A stretch of 64,000 nucleotides of DNA from Hyphomicrobiales bacterium (GTDB lineage: Bacteria; Pseudomonadota; Alphaproteobacteria; Rhizobiales; Rhizobiaceae): assembly GCA_900467685.1 (NCBI GenBank), contig UBQX01000011.1:1-64000 (forward strand), read 5' to 3'. Shown here piece after piece: positions 13,961 to 15,888 of this stretch. Both the position numbers and the translations under genes were made by a program. Position 1 is the first letter of the stretch; every line of letters starts with the position of its first letter. Below the pieces are notes generated by a model. It was not told the origin of the DNA. It did no database searches and was given only the letters and a program-made list of their open reading frames with translations.

Positions 13961-14449
13961 TCAGACCGGAATCCGTTTTCTTTCCAAAATCGGTCCGGGG
14001 AGTGCATGCGGGTCGTCTTCCAGCTTGCGGGCATTCTCGACCAGCCAGCGCATGTATTCGAGAACCAGCTCGCGCTCGAAGCGCCGGAAGCCGGAAAACA
14101 TCGCATCTTCGGCGGCACGGGCCGCCTGCTCGGCATCCGCCTGCAGGGCCTTTGCCCGTTCGGTGAGGAAAAGCAGTTGCGCCCGCTTGTCGCTGGGATG
14201 CGGTCGGCGTTCGACCAGACCGTCGCGCTCCATGCGGGTCAGCGTGTTGGCCATCGTTGCCTGTTCTATATCGAGCCGGTCAACGAGCTGGCGCTGCGTG
14301 AGGCCATCTTCGGCCCAGAGCGCCACGAGGATCGGATACTGGCCGGGAGAAAAACCGAGACTGGCCGCCCGCTCCTGAAACGACCGGGCAAAGCCGCGCG
14401 CCAGCAGGCTGGATAGGTAGGTCGCGGAACTGGTGAGGTCGAAAGCCAT
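13961..14449 (-). CDS. MarR family transcriptional regulator
   Basis: A 162-residue winged helix-turn-helix protein. Its core is typical MarR: GFSPGQYPILVALW, then LTQRQLVDRLDIEQATMANTL as the HTH, then RMERDGLVERRPHPSDKRAQL as the wing, followed by a C-terminal dimerisation helix. An upstream ATG would add 20 hydrophobic residues; I prefer MAFDLTSSATYL because family alignments begin near there. The peptidase gene starts 58 bases downstream on the same strand, so the two may be co-transcribed. The effector and targets are unknown. Confidence 0.85.
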   Translation of the reverse strand: MAFDLTSSATYLSSLLARGFARSFQERAASLGFSPGQYPILVALWAEDGLTQRQLVDRLDIEQATMANTLTRMERDGLVERRPHPSDKRAQLLFLTERAKALQADAEQAARAAEDAMFSGFRRFERELVLEYMRWLVENARKLEDDPHALPGPILERKRIPV

Positions 14450-14540: not shown

Positions 14541-14697
14541 AAGAAACGCAAAAGCCGCCATGGCCTGGAGGGGGACGCCATGGCGGCTTGCGATTTGGGG
14601 ACAAAGACCCGGAGAGGGGGGATGAGGTCTTTGTCCACGTCTGACATAGGCGGGGGACAGGCCGTTTGTCAGACAGCGGCGTGATCAATCGCCGACG
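14541..14697 (-). ncRNA. Candidate small RNA 1: three hairpins with C-rich loops
   Basis: On the minus strand three consecutive perfect hairpins occur: stem GTCTGACA (14639-14674), stem ACAAAGACC (14601-14634) and stem AAGCCGCCATGGC (14552-14589). The last is followed by TTTTGCGTTTCTTG and would act as a terminator. Every loop contains an unpaired C-rich stretch (GTCCCCCGCC, ATCCCCCCTCTCC, GTCCCCCTCC) that could pair with Shine-Dalgarno sequences. A good promoter lies just upstream (CTTGAA-N17-CCATTT). The architecture resembles rhizobial trans-acting sRNAs such as the alpha-r7/r9/r14 groups and the CCUCC-loop cuckoo RNAs; membership is inference only. No protein-coding frame fits. Confidence 0.6.
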
Positions 14698-14703
14698 GGT
14701 TCA

Positions 14704-14732
14704 AAATGGCCGTCGGAATGTGGCTTTTCAAG
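14704..14732 (-). promoter_or_regulatory. Predicted promoter of candidate sRNA 1
   Basis: Minus-strand -35 CTTGAA (14727-14732), 17-base spacer, -10 CCATTT (14704-14709). The predicted start is about 14697, roughly 23 bases before the first hairpin. The -35 box abuts the nested palindrome at 14731-14770. Confidence 0.45.
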
Positions 14733-14770
14733 GTCACGGGGATTACAAATTGGTAATCCGAAGGTGACCT
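14731..14770. promoter_or_regulatory. Nested 40-bp palindrome between the two candidate sRNAs
   Basis: Outer arms AGGTCAC (14731-14737) and GTGACCT (14764-14770) enclose inner arms GGATTAC (14740-14746) and GTAATCC (14753-14759). All pairs are perfect. It sits directly upstream of the sRNA 1 promoter, the position of an activator or repressor site. It could instead form an RNA hairpin if transcription reads through from sRNA 2. No regulator can be named. Confidence 0.55.
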
Positions 14771-14813
14771 GGCGCGCGTCGCGGAGAAGGGCACGCGAAC
14801 TACCAAACTATTG

Positions 14814-14974
14814 ATTTGGAAAAGAAATGGCCGCAACGGAGGGGGCATTTTCCGTTGCGGCCGGGGATGTGCGCGGCATCATGGGGCGATGACACCGCAA
14901 GACGGCGCGATTCTTTCAGGGGACGGTCTCGCGCCGGTCGGGCCGCAGGCGGCGGCCTCTGGAAACAAAGGTGC
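14814..14974 (-). ncRNA. Candidate small RNA 2: tandem partner of sRNA 1
   Basis: On the minus strand four hairpins follow one another: GGCCGC/GCGGCC (14941-14957), GGCGCGA/TCGCGCC (14904-14935, loop with GTCCCCTG), an imperfect stem with loop CGCCCC (14872-14898), and a 12-bp terminator stem GGCCGCAACGGA (14828-14861, loop AAAATGCCCCC) followed by TTTCTTTTCC. The size, order and C-rich loops parallel sRNA 1. A weaker promoter (CTGAAA-N17-CATTTT at 14981-15009) overlaps the stop of the lytic transglycosylase gene. The alternative is that this is simply the 3' untranslated region and terminator of that gene. Confidence 0.5.
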
Positions 14975-15005
14975 TCACCGAAAATGGCGATTTGATGATC
15001 CGGTT

Positions 15006-15581
15006 TCAGTTCGGGCAGGTTCTCAGCTGCGCCGCATATCGATAGGCGATCTTGGTGAAGCGCTGCGCCCCGTTCAACGCATCCGCATTGCCCACATAGC
15101 TCTGCCGCGCATAGCCCTGCTGACCGGAATGATAGGCAAGATAGAGATTGTACGGATCGTTGAGCGCGATGCGGTTGGTGTCGTAGCTCTTGCGGTGGAA
15201 CCAGCCGGCGAAATCGACTGCATCGGCGAACCGTGTCCGGCTTGCGGTGAAGCGCCCCGTTTCAGCCATGTAATGCGACCAGGTGCCGTCCAGCGCCTGC
15301 GAGTAGCCATAGGCCGTCGACGGTCGCGACCAGGGAATGAAACCGAGAAGCTTCTTGCGCGGCGGTCGCGCGTTCGAGCGGAAGCCGGATTCGGTATAGA
15401 TCGTGGCCAGCAGGATCGGCGCCGGGACACCCCAACGGGCTTCAGCCTTCTTCGTTGCATCGCGCCAGTTGTTGAAGAAGCCGTCGTTCTCGTCGAAGAG
15501 CGCGCAGGCATTCGTCGTGTGGCGCGGAACTGTGGCGCAGCCGGCCAGGACCAGCACACATGCCAGAAATACCCAACGCAT
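15006..15581 (-). CDS. Lipoprotein with lytic transglycosylase (SLT-like) domain
   Basis: A 191-residue predicted lipoprotein. The N-terminus MRWVFLACVLVLAGC is a lipoprotein signal peptide with the acylated Cys in the lipobox LAGC. The remainder matches the lysozyme-like SLT fold: a candidate catalytic Glu in ATIYTESGFRSNA, then PWSRPSTAYGYSQALDGTW and a tyrosine-rich YNLYLAYHSGQQGY. It would trim peptidoglycan in the periplasm. The start at MRWVF is chosen over an ATG seven codons upstream because GGAG lies 8 bases before it. It is a single gene, divergent from the FYDLN protein gene. Candidate sRNA 2 lies immediately downstream on the same strand. Confidence 0.87.
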   Translation of the reverse strand: MRWVFLACVLVLAGCATVPRHTTNACALFDENDGFFNNWRDATKKAEARWGVPAPILLATIYTESGFRSNARPPRKKLLGFIPWSRPSTAYGYSQALDGTWSHYMAETGRFTASRTRFADAVDFAGWFHRKSYDTNRIALNDPYNLYLAYHSGQQGYARQSYVGNADALNGAQRFTKIAYRYAAQLRTCPN

Positions 15582-15888
15582 CGTCACTACTCCATACAAC
15601 ATGCCGCAAACGCTGAGGGCGGCAGGCCCTCACGGCATGGACTGAAAGCGTTGGCACACCATGCAAACTGTCATGGCGGCGAACGGAACTCAGACCCTTT
15701 ATAAATCGTGAAGCTTAACGTTCGGTTTTTATGCAATCGGCACATATCGCCATACCGTCCCGAGCCTCCGGCAAGTTTCGCTTTGACAGGCGGCGGCAAC
15801 ATGAGTAAGGGACCGGCTTGATTTTATTTCGTCTCAACCACCAGTCCGGCCCGCCCGGACGCCAGATGACGACACACGAGGTTTCACC
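15582..15888. other. Intergenic region between divergent lytic transglycosylase and FYDLN genes
   Basis: No gene is visible in these 307 bases. A small hairpin (GAGGGC/GCCCTC) lies near 15617-15633. A plausible forward promoter for the FYDLN gene is TTGACA (15783-15788), 17 bases, TAAGGG (15806-15811). The 220-residue minus-strand frame spanning here is an antisense shadow of the acidic FYDLN gene. Confidence 0.5.

Follow-up and report, generated by a model that had tools for sequence, protein, structure and literature searches.

The minus strand between positions 14541 and 14974 of the window, by which we mean the whole stretch of 64,000 nucleotides analysed here, carries two consecutive hairpin arrays with C-rich loops (Table 1). 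These are probably a tandem pair of related genes for trans-acting small RNAs (sRNAs), in which the first element is ar7, predicted to be driven by RpoH and to have loops that block ribosome-binding sites (RBS), and the second is a diverged duplicate of ar7 with a separate role. ar7 is already known; the diverged tandem paralogue is new, and the promoter module found upstream of ar7 is the most interesting by-product of the analysis. An earlier first-pass annotation of this DNA, made from the letters alone, had interpreted the locus as tandem sRNA genes, and this interpretation is partly supported.

Structure of the locus

Both elements are structured RNAs. The paired minus-strand arrays and the C-rich loops quoted in the first-pass annotation are present in the sequence, and both arrays fold far below dinucleotide shuffles: element 1 with −68.2 kcal/mol (z = −7.0) and element 2 with −73.6 kcal/mol (z = −5.2), in each case with 0 of 200 shuffles as low. 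The 64 kb of the window have a single place where three CCCC-loop hairpins lie within 180 nt of one strand, namely element 2; element 1 falls just short of this strict definition, and both strands of 986 kb of comparison DNA contained no site with three CCCC-loop hairpins in 180 nt. The annotation had given each element a terminal hairpin with a T tract plus two or three further hairpins. For element 1 the terminal hairpin and its U tract are as described. In element 2, however, the T tract (ATTTCTTTT) is weak and no terminator was called, a fourth hairpin stands at the 5' end, and of the loop CCCCUCC quoted for the last hairpin only AAAUGCCCCC is unpaired, the UCC being part of the stem.

Table 1. 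Features of the tandem sRNA locus and its flanks (window positions)
Feature	Positions	Strand	Basis
MarR-family regulator gene, downstream of ar7	13961..14449	-	PF01047 1.9e-15
ar7 sRNA, element 1	14549..14697	-	Rfam match, 118.9 bits
ar7 hairpin 3 = terminator, loop CGUCCCCCUCCAGG + U tract	14550..14587	-	fold, covariation; shorter form called terminator-like
ar7 hairpin 2, loop UCAUCCCCCCUCUCCG, sole loop with measurable RBS preference	14599..14636	-	fold, covariation, duplex energies
ar7 hairpin 1, loop ..CUGUCCCCCGCC..	14639..14674	-	fold; covarying stem in 14 sequences
ar7 RpoH-type promoter, CTTGAA (14732-14727)-N17-CCATTT (14709-14704)	14704..14732	-	read from sequence; start ~14697
Palindrome ATTACCAATTTGTAAT, putative activator operator, ends 9 nt before -35 box	14742..14757	-	RTTAC-N6-GTAAY conserved
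Element 2, putative diverged tandem ar7 paralogue	about 14817..14962	-	model R1 150.5 bits; pairing counted over 5 species
Element 2 hairpin 3, terminator-like, loop AAAUGCCCCC	14829..14862; weak T tract 14828-14820	-	fold; alignment
Element 2 hairpin 2, loop CGCCCC	14873..14898	-	two compensatory pairs
Element 2 hairpin 1, loop GACCGUCCCCUGAAAGAA	14904..14935	-	fold; alignment A2
Element 2 hairpin 0, GGCCGC-CGCCT-GCGGCC	14941..14957	-	invariant, 5 species
Conserved 23-nt block GATCATCAAATCGCCATTTTCGG, upstream of element 2	14978..15000	-	near-invariant, 5 species
SLT-domain (SLT_4) lytic transglycosylase gene	15006..15602	-	PF19489 7.6e-65

The lytic transglycosylase gene adjoins ar7 only in the clade of the window, and polA borders ar7 in most other genera; polA is absent from the window and lies upstream of ar7 in G004, a more distant species of the same genus. 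Two mechanically called open reading frames that overlap the sRNA pair (14669-14848, minus; 14811-15704, plus) have no sign of being real genes.

The first element is ar7

Element 1 is the known sRNA ar7 (RF02342; S. meliloti SmelC023/sra03/SmrC7 type). The Rfam model matches 14697-14549 of the minus strand over its full length with 118.9 bits (E = 9.8e-23; gathering score 60), and this is the single ar7 copy in the genome of 5.05 Mb. The likeness to rhizobial alpha-r-type trans-acting sRNAs seen in the first-pass annotation was well chosen, since the first element proved to be ar7 and the second is its relative in structure and in position, and the annotation's expression "two copies" holds in a stronger sense than was intended.

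For S. meliloti and R. etli only, ar7 has been published as a stress-induced RNA of about 147 nt (PMC2873474, PMC4167512). The SmelC023 family has been described as having loops that are conserved, stems in which base pairs are exchanged, and the neighbours polA and marR (PMC3927594). Fixed loops on covarying stems are also what we find, in agreement with that description. In an alignment of 14 sequences, one of which is the second element of genome G065 (see below), two-sided changes occur at 17 of 28 stem pairs and 93.9% of the cells are paired, a result that 0 of 500 shuffles equalled. The loops are nearly frozen: of 110 loci, 95 have TCCCCCGCC and 93 have CCCCCTCTCC. Among 151 Rhizobiaceae genomes, ar7 was found in 125 at E <= 0.001 and in 100 over the gathering cut-off. 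Five genomes (G036, G062, G063, G088, and G126) have a second, distant, weak ar7 match of 31-53 bits; these may be dispersed paralogues.

The ar7 promoter and its palindrome

The first element had been credited with a good promoter. A promoter is indeed present, but it is of the RpoH type; a scan of the locus for sigma70 promoters found none. CTTGAA stands at −60 to −20 of ar7 in 89 of 110 family loci. The ar7 promoter is close to the rhizobial RpoH consensus CTTGAA-N16-CCTATAT (PMC8844928), and the 110 aligned loci led us to replace the sigma70 reading by an RpoH-type one. SmelC023 has been listed with RpoD and RpoH1/2 promoters (PMC7143759), and its R. etli relative ReC06 (PMC3927594) goes up after heat shock and has an RpoH-like promoter (PMC4167512). 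Apparently, therefore, ar7 is switched on by the heat-shock sigma factor RpoH; both the sequence and the expression data published for relatives speak for its transcription under stress.

The palindrome RTTAC-N6-GTAAY is conserved upstream of ar7, being present at 81 of the 110 loci. Its end is separated from CTTGA by 9-11 nt at 61 loci and by 19-21 nt at a further 19, which accounts for 80 of 80, no other spacing being found. The two classes are one helical turn apart, as is expected for a protein that needs to face RNA polymerase. The product of marR was considered as a possible palindrome-binding protein; only 27 of the 110 loci, many with just 500 nt of downstream sequence, have a close homologue of its gene immediately after ar7, as against the 81 with the palindrome.

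The stricter palindrome RTTACNNANNTGTAAY has two perfect sites in the genome of the window, one at ar7 and the other upstream of rpoH1, where it lies 9 nt before CTTGAA-N17-TTATTT (L221, about 1475-1516, minus). Searching 111 genomes for the palindrome with CTTGA at 9-11 nt yielded 56 matches, nearly all at ar7; among the few others are three upstream of rpoH1 (G000, G005, and G007). The palindrome was rejected as a family-wide feature of rpoH1, being seen in just 4 of 23 upstream regions. A palindrome-promoter module common to ar7 and rpoH1 is, by its sequence, well supported as real, although it is not universal.

The second element

The first-pass annotation had proposed to search both segments with Rfam covariance models. 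Such a search identified element 1 as ar7, whereas element 2 matched no Rfam family; the ar7 model gave no match to it even at E = 10. We do not assign element 2 to the Rfam ar7 family, since it is below the score threshold and without the exact loop motifs: its loops are CCGUCCCC(C), CGCCCC, and GCCCCC, and the ar7 loops UCCCCCGCC and CCCCCUCUCC are not present. Element 2 is conserved, structure included, in five species of this genus, where 98.9% of the stem cells pair and CCCC is kept in every loop of hairpins 1 to 3. Mean identity within the genus is 97.5% for ar7, 79.7% for element 2, and 44% for the spacer to ar7, which indicates that element 2 is changing yet constrained. The covariation of its stems across the five species is modest overall, with 2 compensatory pairs, both in hairpin 2, a value that 57 of 500 shuffles reach; the covarying stems that the annotation had suggested looking for in Rhizobiaceae are thus strong in ar7 and thin in element 2. 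A small protein encoded in element 2 was considered and rejected, the short frames being disrupted by indels of 1-2 nt between species.

The conserved block upstream of element 2 aligns with the ar7 promoter and resembles a degenerate version of it (CTTGAATCGCCACxTTC); in G001 and G003 it is a weak match to the ar7-promoter profile. This block may be the promoter of element 2, which we infer to be transcribed as a separate RNA. The −35 box would be ATCAAA, which shares only three of its six bases with CTTGAA, and there is no palindrome upstream.

Relationship of the second element to ar7

A nucleotide search with element 2 gave true matches in the genus alone; the other matches in the family are stretches of 25-49 nt. 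With nucleotide similarity limited to the genus, a covariance model was needed. Model R1 was built from the five element 2 sequences of the genus, with no ar7 in training. On 86 ar7-bearing loci from other Rhizobiaceae genera it gave 72 matches at E <= 0.1, reaching 40.3 bits, and 72 of 72 lie on ar7; the best score in 472 kb of family DNA without ar7 was 16.8 bits. Across 200 whole genomes R1 had five matches outside the genus, four of which are ar7, two of them identified by their coordinates. The specific profile similarity of element 2 to ar7 therefore exceeds background. It should be noted that a covariance model can reward a common architecture without common descent.

Second elements are also found in the polA-ar7 gap of G004 and of G065, which belongs to another genus. 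Both have three hairpins with C-rich loops and are flanked by the divergent genes polA and ar7; neither has a transglycosylase gene upstream. The Rfam ar7 model gives 34.8 bits (E = 0.0012) for the one in G065 and 32.2 bits (E = 0.0048) for the one in G004, both below 60. With an ar7-plus-promoter profile, which included the ar7 of G065 and left out its second element, they score 41.2 and 20.3 bits, respectively, values that 0 of 1000 shuffles reached. Of all the flanks searched at the 110 ar7 loci, these two gave the highest and the second highest score. The element 2 of the window, in contrast, has 2.1 bits with the ar7 profile and no alignment over its length; being below detection there, it is linked to ar7 by R1 and by the intermediates in G065 and G004. 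The second element of G065, the only species of its genus sampled (L191, 2226-2380), has C-loop hairpins and a near-consensus RpoH-type −35 box, ATTGAA. It may have come from one duplication together with the element 2 of the window's genus.

Given its ar7-specific structural likeness and the same position as the intermediates in G004 and G065, element 2 is best read as a diverged tandem paralogue of ar7. The simplest account of these comparisons would be a tandem duplication of ar7, followed by strong divergence in the clade of the window, where a rearrangement would have placed the lytic transglycosylase gene at the former polA site.

Element 2 could instead be the 3' UTR and terminator of the transglycosylase mRNA, possibly a 3'-UTR-derived sRNA, with no promoter of its own. 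Only about 5 nt separate the stop codon of that gene from the conserved block that follows it, a terminator-like site was not found between the gene and element 2, so that read-through is possible, and the −35 box of element 2 is poor. We nevertheless regard a 3' UTR without its own promoter as unlikely, since the second elements of G004 and G065 have no transglycosylase gene upstream, the 23-nt block that separates the stop codon from element 2 is conserved and looks like a promoter, and element 2 resembles ar7. The 3'-UTR and paralogue readings are not exclusive: our preference is for element 2 as an sRNA in its own right, whose targets have changed and which is possibly also released from the transglycosylase mRNA.

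Less probable again is that an unrelated C-loop sRNA, like ar14/NfeR1 or PmaR, has arisen beside ar7 by convergence. C-rich loops on variable stems do recur in rhizobia (PMC3927594; also PmaR), and the element 2 of the window is under Rfam detection for ar7, but the specificity of R1, all of whose matches in ar7 loci fall on ar7, and the graded intermediates that G065 and G004 have at this position speak for descent. That element 2 is a decaying, non-functional ar7 duplicate would fit its much faster divergence and its degenerate promoter; we think this the least likely of the three, in view of the nearly complete stem pairing in 5 species with two compensatory changes and of the CCCC retained in the loops of hairpins 1 to 3, while the adjoining spacer has drifted to less than half identity.

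Loop pairing and possible targets

Occlusion of ribosome-binding sites had been proposed for the loops of both elements. Of six loops, one fits this idea: CCCCCUCUCC of ar7 hairpin 2 pairs with ribosome-binding regions at a mean of −11.5 kcal/mol, as against −10.6 kcal/mol for reversed-sequence controls, a small preference in a test that was crude in that start codons were predicted crudely. The remaining ar7 loops and all element 2 loops had no preference over reversed sequences, and general anti-Shine-Dalgarno pairing of all loops was rejected on this test, as only ar7 hairpin 2 beat the controls. The loops of ar7 may pair with G-rich ribosome-binding sites.

The RBS region of rpoH1 pairs with ar7 hairpin 2 better than most, with a median rank of about the best 9% in 19 genomes. 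The rpoH1 RBS AAAAGAGAGGGGUGC contains GAGAGGGG, the exact complement of CCCCUCUC in the loop of ar7 hairpin 2 (L221, 1367-1400, minus), and is G-rich in most of the family rpoH1 genes examined. By its sequence, rpoH1 is a candidate target of ar7, and only a candidate. One may go further and join ar7 and rpoH1 in one circuit, in which a putative activator on the helix-phased palindrome would act at both RpoH-type promoters, hairpin 2 of ar7 (CCCCUCUC) would feed back on the rpoH1 RBS (GAGAGGGG), and the duplicate, which has no palindrome, would have a separate input. We put this forward as a tentative and rather doubtful proposal.

Comparison with known systems

Element 1 is a full member of the ar7 family (RF02342; SmelC023, sra03, SmrC7; ReC06) in score, three hairpins, fixed loops, terminator, MarR neighbour, and RpoH-type promoter; unlike in most other genera, polA is no longer beside it. 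Element 2 has the same architecture, strand, and position, and differs from ar7 in being under Rfam detection, in its altered loops, and in its extra 5' hairpin. The ar7 gene is listed as single-copy in S. meliloti (PMC7143759), and a tandem ar7 pair is not described in the ar7 literature cited here.

Tandem sibling sRNAs in one intergenic region are known as AbcR1/AbcR2 (ar15), one of which is under RpoH1 (PMC8844928). The AbcR siblings, however, are close homologues with CU-rich motifs, whereas in the present pair one twin has stayed conserved and the other has diverged strongly, and an Rfam ar15 search with both elements gave no match. ar14/NfeR1 (SmelA075 type) resembles the pair in having hairpins with variable stems and repeated C-rich loops. 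In RNAs of the SmelA075 type every loop shows CCUCCUCCC, and a genome carries several copies (PMC3927594); both elements are without CCUCCUCCC loops and without an Rfam ar14 match. The interacting sequence of PmaR of Agrobacterium is mainly cytosines and not anti-Shine-Dalgarno (PMC6234868), which is like the loops of element 2, a likeness by description of the loops only; according to its authors, PmaR is found in Agrobacterium and a close Rhizobium only, and it mostly activates its targets. CcsR1 of Rhodobacter (RF02791) is likewise a C-rich stress RNA family. It gave a sub-threshold match on one ar7 gene (L218; 25.4 bits, gathering score 65.3), and no match to either element of the window was reported in the Rfam search.

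Proposed mechanism and significance

Under heat, stationary-phase, or similar stress, RpoH would transcribe ar7, probably assisted at the promoter by a putative activator bound to the palindrome. The fixed C-rich loops of ar7, above all CCCCCUCUCC, would then base-pair with G-rich ribosome-binding sites, so that translation is blocked. Element 2, for its part, would come from a weaker promoter of its own, from processing of the transglycosylase mRNA at its 3' end, or from both. Its C-rich loops, which are shorter, would act on a different set of targets, and the two RNAs would divide their work much as AbcR1 and AbcR2 do.

Few rhizobial sRNAs are conserved as widely as ar7, and its target is not given in the ar7 literature cited here. 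A tandem of one frozen and one fast-evolving copy is of value in this regard, as changes in the loops can be tied to changes in targets. The upstream enhancers of S. meliloti RpoH promoters have been called uncharacterised (PMC8844928), and the conserved, phased palindrome is a concrete candidate for them. The palindrome module moreover connects ar7 with the gene that encodes its presumed sigma factor. If the circuit with rpoH1 is true, the tandem duplicate would give the same kind of RNA a separate input via loss of the palindrome.
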